From assembly GCA_903872075.1 (NCBI GenBank), contig CAIQJF010000025.1:44552-108551 (forward strand): a DNA stretch of 64,000 nucleotides, in the 5' to 3' direction. The notes beneath the pieces were generated by a model. The model did not search any database. It was not told where the DNA came from and saw only the letters and a list, made by a program, of their open reading frames with translations. Numbering within the stretch: the stretch's first letter is position 1; the number at the start of each line of letters is the position of its first letter. Shown here piece by piece: positions 10,894 through 48,500 of this stretch. The stretch comes from an uncultured Caulobacteraceae bacterium. Lineage in GTDB: Bacteria; Pseudomonadota; Alphaproteobacteria; Caulobacterales; Caulobacteraceae. Both the position numbers and the translations under genes were made by a program.

Positions 10894-13452
10894 ATGGTTC
10901 GTTATAATCCCAAGGAGGTTGAGCCCAGGTGGCGGGCGGCCTGGGATGAGGCCGACGTGTTTCGCGCCGAAACAGACTCCTCCAAGCCGAAATACTACGT
11001 CCTGGAGATGTTCCCCTACCCGTCAGGCAGTCTGCATGTCGGCCATGCGCGGAACTACGCCATGGGCGACGTCGTCGCCCGCTTCAAACGGGCGCGCGGC
11101 TTTAACGTGCTGCACCCTATGGGGTGGGATGCCTTCGGTCTGCCGGCCGAAAACGCCGCCTCCGAGCGCGGGGTCGATCCCGCCGCCTGGACCTGGGACA
11201 ATATCGCCAAGATGCGCGAGGAGCTGAAACGCCTCGGCCTGTCGATCGACTGGTCGCGCGAGCTGGCGACCTGCGACCCCGCCTACTACGGCCGCCAACA
11301 GGCCTGGTTTCTGAAGCTCATGGAACGCGGTCTGGTCTACCGCAAGGAAGGCCTGGTGAACTGGGATCCCGTCGACATGACGGTCCTGGCCAATGAGCAG
11401 GTTATCGATGGTCGCGGCTGGCGGTCCGGCGCCATGGTTGAGCGGCGCAAGCTCACCCAGTGGTTTCTGAGGATCACAGACTATGCCGAAGACCTGCTCG
11501 ACGGCCTGAAGACCCTCGACCGATGGCCCGACAAGGTCCGCACCATGCAGGAGAACTGGATCGGCAAATCCCAGGGCCTGCGTCTGACATTTCAATTCGC
11601 GGGGGAAAGTCCCGAAAGCGGACTGGAAGTCTACACCACCCGGCCGGACACGCTGTTCGGCGCGAGTTTCTTGGCCGTGGCGCCCGATCACCCCCTCGCC
11701 GAGAACCTTGCCCAAAAGGACCCCCGCGTGGCGGCGTTTGTCGCGGAGGTCCGTCGTGGCGGCACGTCCGAAGCAGAGATTGAATCAGCGGAAAAACAGG
11801 GGTGGGACACGGGCCTCAAGGTCATCCATCCCTTTGATTCTACAAGACAAATACCGGTCTGGATCGCAAACTTCGTCCTCATGGACTATGGCGTCGGCGC
11901 GATCTTCGGCTGTCCCGCGCACGACCAGCGGGATCTGGATTTCGCCCGCAAATATGATTTGCCGGTGACGCCTGTGGTGTTGCCCGTGGGCGAGGACCCC
12001 GCCGTGTTTCACGTGAAACAGGAAGCTTACGTCGGCCCCGGGCGTATCTTCAACTCCGCGTTCCTGGACGGACTTGAGATCGAAGCCGCCAAGGCTGTGG
12101 CGATCGCGCGCGCGGAGGCGGATGGTTTCGGCAAGGGCACAACGGTCTATCGACTGCGGGACTGGGGTGTCGCGCGACAACGGGGATGGGGCTGTCCGAT
12201 CCCGGTTGTTCACTGCAGCGATTGCGGCGTCGTGCCTGTGTCGCCCGACCAGCTCCCGGTCGAACTGCCCGTCGACCTGGATTTCAGCAAGCCAGGCAAT
12301 CCCCTGGCGCGCCATGCCACCTGGAAGCACACGTCCTGCCCGAAATGTGGTGCGGCCGCCGAGCGCGAGACCGACACGCTCGACACGTTCGTGGACTCGT
12401 CCTGGTACTTCGCGCGCTTCCCGAACGCCGGCGCCGCGGAGCCCATCGACAAGGCGGCCGCGGACTATTGGCTGCCGGTCGATCAATATATCGGGGGCGT
12501 GGAGCACGCCGTATTGCATCTGCTCTATGCACGCTTCGTCACCCGCGCCCTGGCCGATGAGGGTCTTCTGTCCGTGAAGGAACCCTTCGCCGGTCTCTTC
12601 ACCCAAGGCATGGTCACCCACGAGACCTACCGGCGGCAGAGCGGCGAGTGGCTGGAGCCAGGCTCCGTCGTCATCCGCACGGAAGGCGCCCACAGGCGCG
12701 CGTTCCTGGCCGACACAGACGAGCCCATCGTAATCGGCGAAGCCGAGAAGATGTCGAAGTCCAAGCGCAACGTCGTGGCCCCGGCCGATATCGCCGACGT
12801 GTATGGCGTGGATGCCGCCCGGCTCTTCGTACTGTCAGACTCACCACCCGAACGCGATGTCCAGTGGACCTCCGGCGGAGTCGAGGGCGCGTGGCGGTTG
12901 ATTAACCGCGTCTGGGCGGAGTTCGATGAAACATCGCCGTCTGACGGCGAAATCGACGTGGCCGCAAGCCTCGCGTTGCGACGGGCGACCCACAAGGCGA
13001 TCAAATCGGTCACCGAGGCGATTGAAGGCTTCCGCTTCAACAGCGCGGTGGCCCGGCTCTACGAATTCGTCGCCATCGTCCGCAACGCACGAGCTTCAAC
13101 CGTCACGCCGGAGGTTCGGCGCGAGGCGCTTGCGGCCCTGGCGCGCCTTGTGGCCCCCTTCGCGCCCCACCTGGCCGAGGAATGCTGGCGTCGACTGGGT
13201 GAAGGTGGAATGATCGTGCACGCGGCATGGCCAGCATGGGACGCGAACCTGGTCGCCGACGAGGAGCGGATCCTGCCCGTGCAGATTAATGGCAAGCGAC
13301 GCGGCGAGATTCGTGCGCCGTCCGGCGCCACGGCAGCGGACGTCGAGGCGCTCTTGTTCGCCGATCCAGAGATCGCGAAGAAGCTTGAGGGACTGACGAT
13401 CCGCAAGGTTATTGTCGTCCCGGACCGGATCGTGAATGTGGTAGCGGCGTAG
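10894..13452 (+). CDS. leuS: Leucyl-tRNA synthetase
   Basis: [34 protein letters not shown], 852 aa. Confidence 0.96.
12005..12020. promoter_or_regulatory. parS centromere site, perfect palindrome, inside leuS
   Basis: TGTTTCACGTGAAACA read directly; encodes VFHVKQ in the leuS frame. Confidence 0.92.
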
Positions 13453-15034: not shown

Positions 15035-15928
15035 TCAGGATGTCGGCCCACGCCGGGAGAGCCGGCGACAAAGATCATCCAGTTGCTCGAGGGTCTCATA
15101 GGCGATGCGGAGTTCGCCCGCTCCGCCCCGGTCGCGAATTTCAACCGACAGCCCCAACACATCCTCAAGATCGGATTCCAACGCGCGCGTATCCGCATCC
15201 TTAGCCGCCGGTCGCCCGACTTTCCCCCCCGTCTTGCCCGATTCTCCCCGCGCGCCGCGCGCGAGAAGCTCAGTCTGCCGCACGTTCAGGCCCTGACGGA
15301 TGATCCGTTCCGCCAGAGCCGGCGCGTCGTCGAGATCGAGCAAGGCCCGAGCGTGTCCGGCCGTGAGGCGGCCTCCCTCAAGGTGATCCTGCACGACCTG
15401 TGGCAACCGCATGAGCCGCAGGGTGTTCGCGACGTGGCTACGACTCTTGCCGACGACCTTGCCGATTGCCTCCGGGCCGCGATCGAACCGCTGCGCCATG
15501 GCGTCGTACGCCCGGGCTTCCTCCAGGGCGTTCAGATCCGACCTTTGGATGTTCTCGATCAAGGCGACTTCCATCACCTCCTGGTCTCCCAGGTCCCTCA
15601 CAAGGGCGGGAAGCGCCGTGAGCCCGGCCTGCTGCGCCGCTCGCCAGCGGCGTTCGCCAGCGATGATCTGGTAGGCCTTCTCGGGGCCCGGCATCGGCCT
15701 CACCAGAATGGGTTGGAGCACGCCGCGTTCGCGGATCGAATCGGCGAGCTCCGTCAATTCCTCGCGGCCGAAAGCCCGGCGCGGTTGCTCGGGGTTGGGG
15801 CGGATGAGCTCTATGGGCACATCCAGGACGCCCGCGGCCCGGCGGCCCTCCGGCGTGGACGCCGCTTCGACCTCGTCCAACAGGGCGGACAACCCCCGGC
15901 CCAAGCCGCGCCGACCTTCCGCCATCAC
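15035..15928 (-). CDS. parB: Chromosome partitioning protein ParB
   Basis: RGLGRGLSALLDE, ELIRPNPEQPRRAF, AGERRWRAAQQAGL, IENIQRSDLNALEEARAY. Confidence 0.95.
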   Translation of the reverse strand: MMAEGRRGLGRGLSALLDEVEAASTPEGRRAAGVLDVPIELIRPNPEQPRRAFGREELTELADSIRERGVLQPILVRPMPGPEKAYQIIAGERRWRAAQQAGLTALPALVRDLGDQEVMEVALIENIQRSDLNALEEARAYDAMAQRFDRGPEAIGKVVGKSRSHVANTLRLMRLPQVVQDHLEGGRLTAGHARALLDLDDAPALAERIIRQGLNVRQTELLARGARGESGKTGGKVGRPAAKDADTRALESDLEDVLGLSVEIRDRGGAGELRIAYETLEQLDDLCRRLSRRGPTS

Positions 15929-16028: not shown

Positions 16029-16910
16029 TCATCGCGCGCCAGATCGGCTCACAGGAGCGGCGACAAGGGCCCGTTTCTCGCGAGCGATGACCTCGCGCGC
16101 CAGACCGAGGTAGGCCTGGCTGCCCGCGCACTGCAGATCATAGATGATCGCCGGCTTCCCGAAGGAGGGGGCCTCGGAGATCCTCACATTTCGCGGGATG
16201 ACGGTGTCGAAGACCCTGTCACCCAAATGGTCCCGAACGTCCTTCGCCACCAGGCTCGAGAGACTGTTTCGGCGGTCGTACATCGTCAGGACGACACCCT
16301 CGATCTGCAACGCGGCATTGAGTGAGGTCCGGACCTGTTCGACCGTCCGCAGCAGCTGGGTGAGACCCTCAAGCGCAAAGAATTCGCACTGCAAAGGCAC
16401 AATGACGGAGCCCGCCGCGGTCATGGCGTTCACAGTCAGCAGATTTAGCGACGGCGGACAATCGATGAGGATCCGGTCGTAGCTGCCAAGCGGAAGTCCA
16501 GCCAAGGCGTCCCGCAAACGGAACGCCCGCCGAGGGGTCTGACCCAGTTCCAATTCCACGCCAGACAGATCCGCTTCCGCCGGCAGAAGATGGAGACTGG
16601 GAATGTCCGTCTCCATAACGCAGGCGCTTACGGGCGTCTGGTCCATGATGACGTCGTAGAGGGTGCGCAGCCGCTTGTGAGGCAGAATCCCCAGGCCAGT
16701 GGAGGCGTTTCCCTGTGGATCGCTATCCACGAGCAAGACCTTCTCGCCGACAGCTGCCAGGGCCGCCGCCAGATTGATCGCTGTCGTGGTCTTGCCAACG
16801 CCACCCTTCTGGTTGGCGACAGCCACGACCCGGGGACGGTCAGCTTCTGCGGACACGTTGGATGGCCCCGATCGAAAGGACGCGGCCCCGGGGGTCGCTG
16901 AGACTGACAT
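16029..16910 (-). CDS. parA: Chromosome partitioning ATPase ParA
   Basis: VVAVANQKGGVGKTTTAINLAAALAAVGEKVLLVDSDPQGNAST deviant Walker A; start chosen at MSVSATPG. Confidence 0.94.
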   Translation of the reverse strand: MSVSATPGAASFRSGPSNVSAEADRPRVVAVANQKGGVGKTTTAINLAAALAAVGEKVLLVDSDPQGNASTGLGILPHKRLRTLYDVIMDQTPVSACVMETDIPSLHLLPAEADLSGVELELGQTPRRAFRLRDALAGLPLGSYDRILIDCPPSLNLLTVNAMTAAGSVIVPLQCEFFALEGLTQLLRTVEQVRTSLNAALQIEGVVLTMYDRRNSLSSLVAKDVRDHLGDRVFDTVIPRNVRISEAPSFGKPAIIYDLQCAGSQAYLGLAREVIAREKRALVAAPVSRSGAR

Positions 16911-17490
16911 GGGTGTCGGCGTCGAAGCGCCAGATGTGTCGGGCCGCGACGATCTCCGCCGCCACCTCACCGCCCTTGAGAAACAGCCCGCGCGCGCCAC
17001 GGGCGAAATACGGTTCCGCATAACCGAGCAGCCGGTCCAATGGCGCGCAGGCGCGAGCGGTCACCATGTCCACCTCGAGTTTCAGGGTCTCGGCGCGCGC
17101 ATTGTGCACGACCGCCGGCAACCCCAGTTCCTCTACCACTTCCGTGAGGAACCGGCATCGCTTCGCCATGCTTTCCACAAGGTGAATCTGCGCTCCGGAC
17201 ACGCCCTTGAGCAGCAGCGCCAGCACAAGCCCAGGCAGGCCGGCGCCGCTGCCCAGATCCGCCCAGACCCGGGCTCCCGGCGCAAACCACAGAAGCTGGG
17301 CGCTGTCGACAAAGTGACGCCGCCAGAACACCCCCAAAGTGGAGTCGCCAACCAGGTTCATATGGACGTTGGCGGCGGTCAGGCGATCCCGGAATATCTC
17401 GAGGTCTCGCTCGCGCTCCGGCGTCATGCCGATCGCGGCGAGGAACCCCGCCGGGAGATCCTCGCCGTCAGGCGGCGAAGCGGCGGACAT
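16840..17490 (-). CDS. rsmG: 16S rRNA (guanine527-N7)-methyltransferase RsmG (GidB)
   Basis: [23 protein letters not shown]...[16 protein letters not shown]. Confidence 0.93.
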
Positions 17491-19393: not shown

Positions 19394-19409
19394 TGTTTCA
19401 CGTGAAACA
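19394..19409. promoter_or_regulatory. parS centromere site, perfect palindrome, mnmG-mnmE intergenic
   Basis: TGTTTCACGTGAAACA read directly. Confidence 0.95.
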
Positions 19410-22638: not shown

Positions 22639-23073
22639 TCAGGATCCGAACTTCGTCGTGACCGACAAAACGATCACGATCGCGGCGAGAAATGGCAGCT
22701 CATTGGTCATCCGCCAGAAACGTTCGGTATGGGGTCGCTCCCCTGACGCGAAGCGGCGGTGCGCATTGCCGAGGAACATATGCCAGAATAGAAGGAAGGC
22801 GATACCGCAGAGCTTCAACATCATCCACGGCCGAGACAAGGTCGAAAGACCATCGAAGTAGATAAGTGAAGCGCCAAATACAACCACGGCCACCATGGCC
22901 GGCGTCATGATTATCTTCGCCAGCTTCGATTCCATGGTTTTGAACGTTTCGTCCATCTCCGAGCCAGGTGTTGACCGCGTGTGATAGGCGAAAAGCCGCG
23001 GCATGTAGAGAAGACCGGCCATCCACGCGATGACGGCCAGGATATGCAAGCCCCGAACCACATTGAACATCAT
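22639..23073 (-). CDS. hemJ: Protoporphyrinogen oxidase HemJ (CopD-like membrane protein)
   Basis: RGLHILAVIAWMAGLLYMPRLFAYH, HRRFASGERPHTERFWRMTNELPFLAAI; next to hemH. Confidence 0.88.
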   Translation of the reverse strand: MMFNVVRGLHILAVIAWMAGLLYMPRLFAYHTRSTPGSEMDETFKTMESKLAKIIMTPAMVAVVVFGASLIYFDGLSTLSRPWMMLKLCGIAFLLFWHMFLGNAHRRFASGERPHTERFWRMTNELPFLAAIVIVLSVTTKFGS

Positions 23074-24116
23074 GCGCCTGTTTCCGATCCGACCTTGCGA
23101 CCACAACGCGCCAGCGACGACGGGCATGGCCCGCCATCCGGGCAACGGCCCTTCCGCCCTAGCGCACGCGACACAGCCTCAGCTAGACCATCGATAAAAG
23201 CGGGATCAACACCGACCACAGGCGCGCGGAGATAGACCGGGACGCCGCACTCCGCAGCGAGTTCCGCATAGTCAATATCCAGCTCGACCAGAGTCTCAAT
23301 GTGCTCAGACACGAAAGCGACGGGATCAATCAGGACGCCGACATCGTCCTTGCCCGCGGTTTCGATCGCTTCAGGCGTTGATGGGCCTATCCATTTCAAA
23401 GGTCCGACCCGACTCTGATAACAGACCTGCCAATCCCAATCCGCGCCAAGCTGAGCGGCGATCGCCGCACAGGTTGCCTCGATCTGCCATTGGTAAGGAT
23501 CGCCGCTTTGCGCGATCTGCTCTGGCAGGCCGTGCGCGGAAAAGAGCAGTCGCACCCGTGGCCGGCCCGCATCGTCCCAGGCGCGGCGAATCCGGCTGAC
23601 GTGAGCGTCGATCAGGCCGGGATTGTCGTACCAGCAGCAGATTGTATGAGTTTCGCCGCTGCCTTTGTAAGCCTTGCGCCAGGCCTCAAGTGACGATCCG
23701 GAGGTCGTTGTGGAGTACTGCGGATAGAGTGGCGCCAGCACCACATGATCGGGTCTGAAGGCCGCGACGCGCTTGGCCGTTTCCTCACTCGTCGGTTTCC
23801 AATATCGCATGGCGATGAAGGTCTCGACCTCAGCCTCGCCCAGCCGTATCGCCAGGGCGGTTTGCAGAGCGTTTGCCTGGGACTCGGTCTCGGGCACGAT
23901 CGGCGAACCTCCGCCCATCAGTGCATAGTTCGCGATCGCTGAACGCTCCCGCAGCCGCGCAATCAGGGCGGCCAGGGGGCGGCGTATCAACCAGGGAGCG
24001 CCGATGATCGCAGGGTCGGAGAACAGATTCTCAAGGAAGGGCCGTACCGCTTTTGGCCCGTCCGGGCCGCCGAGATTAAACAGCACGATGGCGATGCGGG
24101 GTTTCACGCGACTCAT
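23070..24116 (-). CDS. hemH: Ferrochelatase
   Basis: RIAIVLFNLGGPDGPKAVRPFLENLFSDPAII, LFSAHGLPEQ, FVSEHIETLVELDIDYAELA. Confidence 0.95.
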   Translation of the reverse strand: MSRVKPRIAIVLFNLGGPDGPKAVRPFLENLFSDPAIIGAPWLIRRPLAALIARLRERSAIANYALMGGGSPIVPETESQANALQTALAIRLGEAEVETFIAMRYWKPTSEETAKRVAAFRPDHVVLAPLYPQYSTTTSGSSLEAWRKAYKGSGETHTICCWYDNPGLIDAHVSRIRRAWDDAGRPRVRLLFSAHGLPEQIAQSGDPYQWQIEATCAAIAAQLGADWDWQVCYQSRVGPLKWIGPSTPEAIETAGKDDVGVLIDPVAFVSEHIETLVELDIDYAELAAECGVPVYLRAPVVGVDPAFIDGLAEAVSRALGRKGRCPDGGPCPSSLARCGRKVGSETGA

Positions 24117-24140
24117 CGCCAGATCACTCTTCGCCCCCAA

Positions 24141-24675
24141 GGACCACTCTCCAGCCCCTACTCAATTCGGAGGCCCATCGCCAGCGCGCTTTAGACAGCC
24201 ATCGGGGTTTGTCCTCAAGACCCCAAAGAGCCTCTCATTCTTAATCATTCTTAAAGAGAGAATCTGAGAGGATGCAGGGGTGGTAGGGTGAGCCATAGCG
24301 GGGAAAAGCGTCAAACCGTCGGAATATCCCCAAACGCGACAGGCCTTCCCCACACGACGGACTTAAGGGAAAAGTTTACCCACAACTTGGGGATTGTCGA
24401 TCAAAGCACTGATCTAAAAAGTCTTTTTGAGCGGATGACGGGATAAAACCTGTGTGCCTACCCTTTTGTCCGACCAAGGTCATTCAACTCGGCGTCGACC
24501 GTTCACAGGAATTGCCGAATGGGATTCTGCGGGGGATGAAAGGCGGTTTTGTCCTCACCGATCCACCGAGGCTCGGCTTTGGCGGCGGAAGCCCTGGAAG
24601 TTTCCACATAGCCATGGGATTGGTTAAGCACTTCTTAACCGGCGTTCCACAGACGTCGTGTCAGGCCGGACCTGA
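24141..24675. other. Candidate chromosomal replication origin (Cori-like) between hemH and ppsR
   Basis: TTACCCACA (24376-24384, one mismatch to TTATCCACA); TCCCCA motifs at 24327-24332, 24347-24352 and reverse at 24388-24393; AT-rich tract 24411-24431; CtrA box 24624-24638; divergent gene orientation on both sides; flanking genes as at Caulobacter Cori. Confidence 0.75.
24624..24638. promoter_or_regulatory. CtrA binding box TTAA-N7-TTAA
   Basis: TTAAGCACTTCTTAA exact, 38 bp before the ppsR start codon. Confidence 0.75.
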
Positions 24676-25524
24676 ATGACAACGCCTCAACGCCTCGCCA
24701 CCTATTTCCACGTTCACCTGGTGTCGGATTCCACCGGCGAGACGCTCAACGCCATGGCGCGCGCCGCTTGCGCCCGGTTCAACAACGTCCTTGAGATCGA
24801 GCACATCTACGCGCTGGTGCGGTCGCCCGCGCAACTCGAGCGGGCGCTGGTTGAAATCGCCAATGCGCCGGGTGTCGTGCTCCACACCATCGTTGATGAG
24901 AACCTCAGGGGCGCTCTGGAAGCCGGATGCCAAAAACTGGATATGCCGTGTTTCGGCGCGCTTGACCCCCTTGTCTCGGCCCTCTCCTGGTATTTAGGAG
25001 CCCCGCTTTCCAAACGGGTTGGCGCGCAATACGCCCTGGACAGTGACTATTTTAACCGTATGGACGCCCTGGCCTACGCCTTGGGCCACGACGACGGCCA
25101 GGGTGGACAGGATCTGAACCTCGCCGATGTGGTTCTGGTCGGCGTGTCCAGGACGTCCAAAACACCCACCTGCATCTATCTGGCGCATCGGGGCATCAAG
25201 GCGGCAAACATCCCCTTGGTGACAGCCGCGGAAGTTCCCTCAAGCCTGAAGGATCTGAAGGGCGTACCTGTGGTCGCCCTGACGCTTTCCCCGGATCGCC
25301 TTGTGCAAATACGGCGCAACCGTCTGCGCAGCCTCAATGAGAGCCGTGAAAGCAACTACGTCGACAACGATTCGGTGCGTGGTGAGGTGGTCGCGGCGCG
25401 CCGCCTGTTCGAACGACAAGGCTGGCCGGTTATCGACGTCACGCGTCGATCTGTCGAAGAAACAGCCGCCGCCGTCATCAATATCCTCTCTGGAGGGACC
25501 GCGCAGGTCGAGGTTGTCGGGTGA
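24676..25524 (+). CDS. ppsR: Pyruvate, phosphate dikinase/PEP synthase regulatory protein (DUF299)
   Basis: HLVSDSTGETLNAMARA..., VGVSRTSKTPTCIYLAHRGIKAANIPLV. Confidence 0.93.
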   Translation: MTTPQRLATYFHVHLVSDSTGETLNAMARAACARFNNVLEIEHIYALVRSPAQLERALVEIANAPGVVLHTIVDENLRGALEAGCQKLDMPCFGALDPLVSALSWYLGAPLSKRVGAQYALDSDYFNRMDALAYALGHDDGQGGQDLNLADVVLVGVSRTSKTPTCIYLAHRGIKAANIPLVTAAEVPSSLKDLKGVPVVALTLSPDRLVQIRRNRLRSLNESRESNYVDNDSVRGEVVAARRLFERQGWPVIDVTRRSVEETAAAVINILSGGTAQVEVVG

Positions 25525-45456: not shown

Positions 45457-45529
45457 GCCGCGACGAGGCGCGGACCCCGGGCATAGAAACCGGGGCCAGT
45501 CCGCCTCACAAAAAGATCGCGCTCGAAGA

Positions 45530-45558
45530 CCCCGGCGGCTCAACCGCCGGGGTTTCTT
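45530..45558 (+). terminator. Rho-independent terminator after TonB receptor
   Basis: CCCCGGCGG-ctcaa-CCGCCGGGG followed by TTTCTT. Confidence 0.8.
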
Positions 45559-45580
45559 GTCTCTGGATGATCTTTGCGTC

Positions 45581-48500
45581 CTACCAGGCGTCGACGAAAC
45601 GGCGGCGCGGCGAATGGCGCGGCCGGGCGCTCTTCAGGCCCTGGACGATCCACTTGCGAGTGTCGGCCGGGTCGATCACGGCGTCGATCTCAAGTGTCGC
45701 GGCGACATTGACGGCCTTCCCGCGCGAATAGAGGCCAGCCAGAAGCTTGTCGAAGAGCGCTTGCTTCGCCGCGGGGTCGGTTTCGGCTTCCAGTTCGCGG
45801 CGGTAGCCGAGGCGTACGGCCCCTTCCAGACCCATCCCGCCGAATTCGCCTGTAGGCCAGGCGGCGCAGAAGAACGGCGCCAGGGTGGAGCCGCCCGTCA
45901 TCGCCTGGGCCCCCAGCCCATAGGCCTTGCGCAGCACGATCGAGAACATGGGCGTACCCAGCCGCGCGGCGTTGATGAACAGCCGCGAGGTCTTGCGCAC
46001 CGCGGCGGCGGCCTCGCTGTCGGGTCCGACCATGAAGCCGGGGGTGTCGACGAGGGAGAGCACCGGCAGGTCGAAGGCATCGCAGAGCTGGAACAGGCGT
46101 GAGCCCTTGTCGGCGCCGTCGCAGTCCACCGCCCCGCCGAGATGGCGGGGATCATTGGCGATCAGGCCCATGGGCCGGCCTTCCATGCGGATGAAGCCGG
46201 TGATCAGGCCCGGTGCGAAATTCGGACGGAGTTCGAGGAACGAGCCCGCGTCGACCAGCGTCTCGATCACGTTCCGGACATCGTAGACCCGCAGGCGGTT
46301 TTCCGGGATTGCCCGGCGCAGGAGCCGCTGATCGGCGGCGGTCCAGTCGGAAACCGGTCCCTGGAAATAGGACAGGGTCTGTTTGGCGATCCGGGTCGCG
46401 TCCGCCTCGTCCTCGGCCAGGACATCGACCACGCCGTTGGCGGTCTGGACGTCCATCGGGCCGATGTCCTCCGGCGCGAACACCCCAAGGCCGCCGCCCT
46501 CGATCATGGCCGGGCCGCCCATGCCGATATTGGTCCCCTTGGTGCAGATCAGAATCTCGCACACGCCGGCAAAAGAGGCGTTGCCGGCGAAGCAGCGGCC
46601 GGACACGACGGCGATCTTGGGGACCTGGCCGGCCAGCTGGGCGAAAGCCTTGAAACTGGGGGTGGCGAGACCGGAGCTGCCAATCCCGTCGGTGTCCCCC
46701 GGGCGCCCGCCGCCGCCTTCGGCGAACCAGACCACGGGCAGATGTTCAGCCTCGACCAGCTCCAGAAGCCGGTCGGTCTTAAGGTGGTTCATCAGTCCCT
46801 GGGTGCCGGCCAGAACCGTGAAATCGTAGGAGAGGGCGGCGCAGCGGGCCTTGTCGGGCCCAAACAGGGCGCCGTTGACCGATCCGACGCCGCAGATGAG
46901 CCCGTCGGCGGGGCTCATCTTGAGCAGCTCCTCCGGGGTGCGCCGACGGCGCTGGGCGGCGACGGCGAACGAGCCATATTCGAGGAAGGTGCCGGGATCG
47001 AGCAGGTCGTCGATATTTTCCCGGGCGGTTCGCTGGTTGCGGCTGCGACGGCGCGCCACCGCCTCAGGCCGCGCCTCATCGAGAGTCACCCGCCAGCGTT
47101 CGAGCACCTCGGCCAGATCGGGCCGGATGGCGTCTAGGTCCACCTCCTCCTGGAGATCCTCGACCGCATCCGCGACGGCCTCCGGAATCAGGAAGACCAG
47201 CGGCTGGTCCTTGAGAACCACATCCCCAGCGGCGGCGCCTATGCGCGCCACGCGACCGCCGGCCGTCGCCTCGACGACGTGCTCCATTTTCATGGCTTCA
47301 AGGATGGCGAGGGTCTGTCCTGGGCGAACGAGGTCGCCCTCGGCGACGCCGAAGGATCCGACCGTCGCCTGCAGCGGCGCGCGCACCGAAACGGCTCCCT
47401 CCACCGCGAGTTCCTGCCCGCCCGCCACCGCGCCCGCCCCGCTCGTGTCGGCGGCGAATGCGCGGCTGGAGAGTCGGTCGGCCGCGGCTATCAGGGCCGG
47501 AGCCTCGCTCTCAACGAAGGTCGTCGTGGTCTCGCCGGCCAGAACTTCCGGCCGCGCCAGCAGGGCGCGGAGCGGACCGATCAGGGTCTGGGCGCCTTCG
47601 ATCCGGAATTCCGAAAGGGCGCGATCCGTGCGGGCCGCCGCCTGAGCCAGGGTCGCGCCATGCACGATGACCTTGGCCAGCAAGGAGTCGTAGTTGGGGT
47701 TGGTCACATAGCCGGCGTAGCCATAGCCATCGACCCGAACGCCGGGTCCCGACGGGGGTTCATAGGCCGTCAGCCGCCCGCCGCTGGGCAGAACTGAACC
47801 GTCTGCCGCCAGGGTCTCGAGATTGACCCGGGCCTGGATGGCATAGCCTTGCGAGCGCGGCGTTTCCGTCAGACCGATCGCGGCGAGGGTGTCGCCGGCG
47901 GCCAGACGAATCTGGGCCTGGACCAGATCGATCCCCGTGACCGCCTCGGTGATGGTGTGCTCGACCTGCAGCCGGGCGTTGGCCTCGATGAAGAAGAAGT
48001 CTTCGCCTCCCGCCTCGAGCAGGAACTCGATGGTGCCCAGGGTGCGATAGCGGGCCGCCGCGGCCAGGTTGACCGCCGCCTCGAACAGCCGCGTCCGGAC
48101 ACCCTCTAAAAGGTTCGGCGCCGGCGCGATTTCGAGGATCTTCTGGTGGCGGCGTTGCAGCGAGCAGTCCCGCTCGCCGATGGCGAGAACCCCGGTCCTG
48201 TCGCCCGCGACCTGCACCTCGATGTGCCGGGCGTGCTCGATCAGACGTTCGGCGTAGACAAGGCCGACGCCAAACGCCGCCTGGGCCTCGCGTGACGCTG
48301 CGGCAAAGGCGTCGGGCAGTTCCTCGCGCGTGCGCACCGGCCGCATGCCCCGCCCCCCGCCGCCGGCCACGGCCTTGATCATCATGGCCGCGCCCCTGGG
48401 CAGGGTGTCGAAGAAGGCCGTCATTTCCGCGAGGTCGGCCGCCCCGTCGGTGCCGGTGATGACCGGGACGCCGGCGCGCACCGCCAGTCCCTTGGCCCGC

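Follow-up and report, generated by a model that had tools for sequence, protein, structure and literature searches.

In Caulobacter crescentus, the chromosomal replication origin Cori is located between hemE and a gene of the COG1806 group (PMC1914354), and its W- and G-boxes have been described (PMC4285127). The response regulator CtrA acts on both Cori and ftsZ in this bacterium (PMC2217572). The origin of Rickettsia prowazekii, a small AT-rich intergenic region with CtrA and DnaA sites, likewise lies between hemE and the COG1806 gene RP001, and published origin criteria accept either hemE or COG1806 as the boundary gene (PMC1914354). A precedent for the separation of the two genes is found in Wolbachia, where the predicted origin lies between COG1253 and hemE (PMC1914354). 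In Sinorhizobium meliloti, CtrA is conserved and tied to replication and division, and it does not bind the origin (PMC4433202). The hemE-COG1806 pair serves as a landmark for alphaproteobacterial origins. Here we describe a locus in which one half of this landmark has been replaced while the origin very probably stayed in place; the type of origin is already known, and the displaced flank and the stripped set of CtrA targets are new.

The DNA analyzed, referred to as the window, is a stretch of 64 kb (C25:44552-108551, on a contig of 108 kb) from a metagenome-assembled draft genome of the Caulobacteraceae (4.36 Mb, 100 contigs). By kinship to named members, the genome is assigned to the genus Palsa-881, renamed Acaudatibacter, in which SZAS AMP-5 and CP_BM_RX_R9_33 have been placed; flagellar and holdfast genes are missing in most species of this genus, and photosynthesis clusters are present in some (PMC12700997). 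The source organism is apparently a light-using, uncultured relative of Caulobacter. The features of the locus that bear on the origin are as follows.

24117 to 24675, no strand: putative chromosomal replication origin (Cori orthologue), a non-coding divergent gap of 559 bp
23070 to 24116, minus strand: hemH (ferrochelatase, TIGR00109), directly flanking the gap
22639 to 23145, minus strand: hemJ (TIGR00701 is the best and sole match, slightly below the cut-off)
24676 to 25524, plus strand: ppsR (DUF299/COG1806, NF003742), the conserved right flank of Cori
15035 to 15928, minus strand: parB (TIGR00180)
16029 to 17021, minus strand: parA (ParA-family matches and position beside parB)
12005 to 12020, plus strand: perfect parS site TGTTTCACGTGAAACA
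19394 to 19409, plus strand: perfect parS site TGTTTCACGTGAAACA

A reading of the sequence alone (the sequence-only reading) had proposed that a non-coding gap of about 0.55 kb, at which gene orientation flips, is the equivalent of Cori. The gap is correctly placed, with hemH on the minus strand and ppsR on the plus strand, and it measures 559 bp if hemH starts at the ATG at 24116, which is likelier than the longer TTG start at 24140. The ppsR gene of the window is a homologue of C. crescentus CC_0001.

To the right of the gap the locus resembles Cori and the R. prowazekii origin in that it adjoins a COG1806/DUF299 orthologue, identified by NF003742 and by conserved gene order, while on the left hemH takes the place of hemE, which both of these origins retain. 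The order rho-hemJ-hemH-hemE-gap-ppsR-maf-aroE-coaE-dnaQ is found in about 70 other Caulobacteraceae loci, and hemE is missing beside the gap only in the window and in loci L041-L046. With hemE gone, hemH adjoins the gap in the window and in L041-L045. Locus L046 (JAFANN010000107.1, genome G011) has an origin gap without both hemE and hemH, and the single HemH-like match in that genome is a 29%-identical protein on a different contig. A nucleotide profile was built from 65 gaps outside the genus and searched against contig C25 and parts of contig C72. It matched the 108-kb contig at two places in total, both inside the gap and in order, each with a modest E-value when taken singly.

24192 to 24311, plus strand: hemH-side conserved segment, nhmmer match to the hemE-ppsR gap profile (E 0.005)
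24528 to 24665, plus strand: ppsR-side conserved segment, collinear nhmmer match to the same profile (E 0.006)

The conserved order and the collinear match therefore identify the gap as the orthologue of the hemE-ppsR gap and not as a new intergenic region; hemE is a flank and not a functional element of the origin. That the gap is a mere divergent promoter for hemH and ppsR, with the CtrA box and TCCAC motifs regulating ppsR, appears improbable to us. The two genes do diverge here, and the exact CtrA box, whose distance to the start of ppsR is 52 bp, is plausibly placed for a promoter element. However, the gap can be aligned to the gap between hemE and ppsR in relatives, at the position established for Cori by experiment, and regardless of the left-hand gene its length stays within about 450-660 bp in almost every locus. 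The clustering of W-boxes, the linkage to parABS and the GC skew of relatives also speak against a promoter and for an origin.

The motifs in the gap, together with the one other exact CtrA box in the assembly, are given below.

24327 to 24332, plus strand: W-box TCCCCA
24347 to 24352, plus strand: W-box TCCCCA
24388 to 24393, minus strand: W-box TCCCCA (TGGGGA on the plus strand at 24388)
24376 to 24384, plus strand: DnaA-box-like TTACCCACA, not conserved in sister species
24395 to 24403, minus strand: G-box-like TGATCGACA, one mismatch
24369 to 24428, no strand: lowest-GC 60-mer of the gap (0.37), a candidate unwinding element that contains AAAAAGTCTTTTT at 24416
24624 to 24638, no strand: TTAAGCACTTCTTAA, an exact CtrA box; the genome has just one other
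24241 to 24254, no strand: imperfect CtrA box TTAATCATTCTTAA, spacing 6
24600 to 24651, plus strand: conserved ppsR-proximal module TTTCCACA .. GATTGG-CtrA box .. TTCCACAG, from the alignment of sister gaps
G000:C16:17882-17896: second exact CtrA box, 108 bp upstream of ftsZ (TIGR00065)

All motifs listed by the sequence-only reading (the W-boxes including the reverse one, TTACCCACA, AAAAAGTCTTTTT and the exact CtrA box at 24624) are present, and they exceed chance in comparison with dinucleotide shuffles of the gap: 3 W-boxes vs 0.61 expected (p 0.024), 1 TTA[TC]CCACA site vs about 0 expected (p 0.004) and 1 TTAAN7TTAA site vs 0.01 expected (p 0.005). As origin elements, TTACCCACA at 24376 and AAAAAGTCTTTTT at 24416 fared less well, being conserved not even in sister species; TTACCCACA is missing from the sister gaps and was rejected as a key conserved DnaA box. 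What is conserved in the alignment with sister gaps is the ppsR-proximal block at 24600-24651, which reads TTTCCAC..GATTGGTTAAGCA-N6-TTAAC..TCCACAG, and a hemH-side block that includes the imperfect CtrA box at 24241. Across the pooled Caulobacteraceae gaps, enrichment over shuffles is 5.8-fold for W-boxes and hundreds-fold for exact CtrA boxes, figures that are not probabilities because the loci are related; exact CtrA boxes occur there at 92 places (184 counting both strands).

Since the earlier motif set had partly been picked after viewing the gap, the density scan was redone with published motifs only, covering about 190 kb of the genome (C25 and part of C72). With 6 sites per 535 bp, the gap is the maximum of the 108-kb contig, the runner-up having 3, and its three W-boxes and near-consensus boxes form the densest DnaA-site cluster there. 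In the 83 kb scanned on C72, one place reaches 5 sites per 535 bp; this stretch of DnaA/CtrA-type motifs lies at about 45,500-46,100, near photosynthesis regulator genes. The GC content of the gap (0.54) is within the lowest 0.4% of 535-bp stretches on the contig. The gap thus shares with Cori the position left of the COG1806/DUF299 gene (CC_0001), W-boxes, an exact CtrA box, low GC and linkage to ParABS. It differs from Cori, which has five CtrA boxes, in carrying one exact (TTAAN7TTAA) and one imperfect box, and it contains no exact C. crescentus G-box TGATCCACA and no clear IHF site: the IHF consensus WATCAANNNNTTR has no match in the gap within one mismatch, but the IHF site of C. crescentus is itself divergent, so that a site of another form may be present.

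Measured from the centre of the gap, the two parS sites lie at 5.0 and 12.4 kb; parA and parB are 7-9 kb away. The sequence-only reading had named GC skew as a check, and the outcome is mixed. On the contig itself, a single contig of a draft genome, skew does not change significantly at the gap (p 0.13). In relatives, a split at the ppsR gap gives p 0.0005 in G034 (a contig of 5.55 Mb) and p 0.03 in G026 (a one-contig genome that has also lost the origin-side hemE). The skew minima are offset from the gap by about 120-345 kb in G034 (250-kb sampling) and by about 140 kb in G026, i.e., within about 2-6% of the chromosome, and the support from skew is moderate because both are weak-skew genomes.

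The absence of dnaA and hemE from the neighbourhood had also been noted correctly, both genes being located on C72, outside the window. For dnaA this is the normal arrangement, since in no Cori locus did the examined flanks of up to 10 kb contain it, and its absence is therefore not odd. The joint presence of hemE and dnaA on C72, the C72 stretch with 5 motif sites at about 45,500 and the Wolbachia precedent (PMC1914354) are compatible with an origin that moved with hemE, with dnaA or elsewhere, leaving the gap as a relic. We regard such a move as very improbable: the parS sites and motifs are still at the gap, and the hemE on C72 belongs to a different lineage inside a photosynthesis cluster and hence carried no origin along. 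In G026, moreover, the skew minimum lies close to the ppsR gap (at 67 kb) rather than to hemE (at 1.69 Mb). While the predicted Wolbachia origin stayed with hemE when hemE and COG1806 were separated, the origin would here have stayed with COG1806.

Taken together, synteny, the two collinear matches to the profile, the linkage to ParABS, the clustered motifs and the skew of relatives support the proposal that the gap is the Cori equivalent. It is very probably the chromosomal replication origin orthologous to Cori, which would have lost its hemE flank after a second hemE was acquired and kept its CtrA box; the identity as an origin is well supported, although not proven. We propose that DnaA would assemble on the cluster of W-boxes and weak boxes at 24327-24403 and open the adjacent AT-rich stretch, that CtrA at 24624, and weakly at 24241, would block this assembly, and that ParABS, 5-12 kb away, would segregate the copies.

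The sole hemE of the genome is found on C72 amid photosynthesis genes (bchB, PpsR/CrtJ, bchG, tspO, hemE, bchI, bchD, crtI, crtB). The photosynthesis PpsR encoded there (L175, C72:40001-60000) and the window's DUF299 'ppsR' are unrelated. Among 250 family genomes, hemE is bimodal, with 75-100% identity to that of the window genome in ten (type B) and 57% or less among the others listed. The same photosynthesis neighbourhood surrounds type-B hemE in G012, G002 and G009, while none of these genes was found around it on the stretches examined in G013, G011, G014 and G001. Type B is present in three genera, and the origin-side hemE is missing in all nine type-B genomes with a readable gap (G000, G002, G009, G011, G012, G013, G014, G066 and G026).

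The sequence-only reading had suggested that hemE was relocated. The gene does sit elsewhere, but it represents another HemE lineage, and the ancestral copy beside the origin has been lost. In the HemE tree, type B is monophyletic (100/100) and lies outside the clade of Caulobacteraceae origin-side HemE (type A), itself supported at 100/100. A relocated and fast-diverged origin-side gene would fit the single hemE of nearly every genome, from which it also follows that a B copy, wherever it occurs, takes the place of an A copy. Rapid divergence after relocation is nevertheless an unlikely account of hemE, given that types A and B are about 52% identical (range 43-58%) vs an average of 75-77% within each group, that they form separate, fully supported clades, and that B, found in three genera, is in every checked case accompanied by the absence of hemE from the origin. 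We therefore favour replacement, in which the second, distantly related hemE would have arrived first and made the ancestral left-flank copy dispensable, which would then have been lost. The gap was kept after the loss of hemE, as would be predicted for a gap whose function does not depend on that gene. No HemE above 56% identity was found outside the B group among 387 sampled genomes of the class that might point to a donor. G006, from the same genus, encodes a third HemE (L161, C30:71289-72323) that is neither A nor B, is 43% identical and groups with HemE of other orders, and the origin gap of G006 falls at the edge of a contig; in the draft of G015, no hemE was found. Because hemE was replaced while the origin stayed, landmark searches based on hemE fail in these genera, and the locus represents a natural experiment in which origin function has been split from its old neighbour.

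The genome encodes CtrA (C43:47992), with 81% identity to C. crescentus CtrA. The exact CtrA box occurs once in the window and twice in the whole 4.36-Mb assembly, and both sites, in the gap and before ftsZ, recur in sister species. The chance that, of two randomly placed sites, one falls in the gap and the other no more than 300 bp upstream of ftsZ is about 2e-8, a post hoc estimate. Across 11 genomes of the genus, 16 of the 30 exact boxes are at the gap or at ftsZ, the ftsZ box (75-116 bp upstream) being present in 10 and the gap box in 6 of the 11. The concentration of exact boxes at the origin and the ftsZ promoter suggests that CtrA is probably mainly a regulator of replication and division here; these counts include exact boxes only, and the true regulon may be larger because CtrA also uses imperfect sites. 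Judged by these sites, replication and division seem to be the main processes left under CtrA control in this lineage, for which the loss of flagella and of dimorphic development has been reported. Unlike in S. meliloti, where the origin is unbound by CtrA, the origin here carries one of the two exact boxes that remain. Tentatively, the regulon may have shrunk to an irreducible core of origin and ftsZ in a non-dimorphic phototrophic lineage, which would show the basic job of CtrA to be the coupling of initiation to division even where swarmer/stalked development is absent, and the gain of the photosynthesis-cluster hemE may have led to the removal of the gene found beside the origin in both Rickettsia and Caulobacter. 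With exact boxes kept both at ftsZ and at the origin, and with flagella and holdfast reported missing from the lineage, the essential outputs of CtrA after the loss of dimorphism become testable. Most other genomes of the family contain 5-22 exact CtrA boxes, and G010 (SZAS AMP-5), a deep-branching member described as having motility genes, contains 12.
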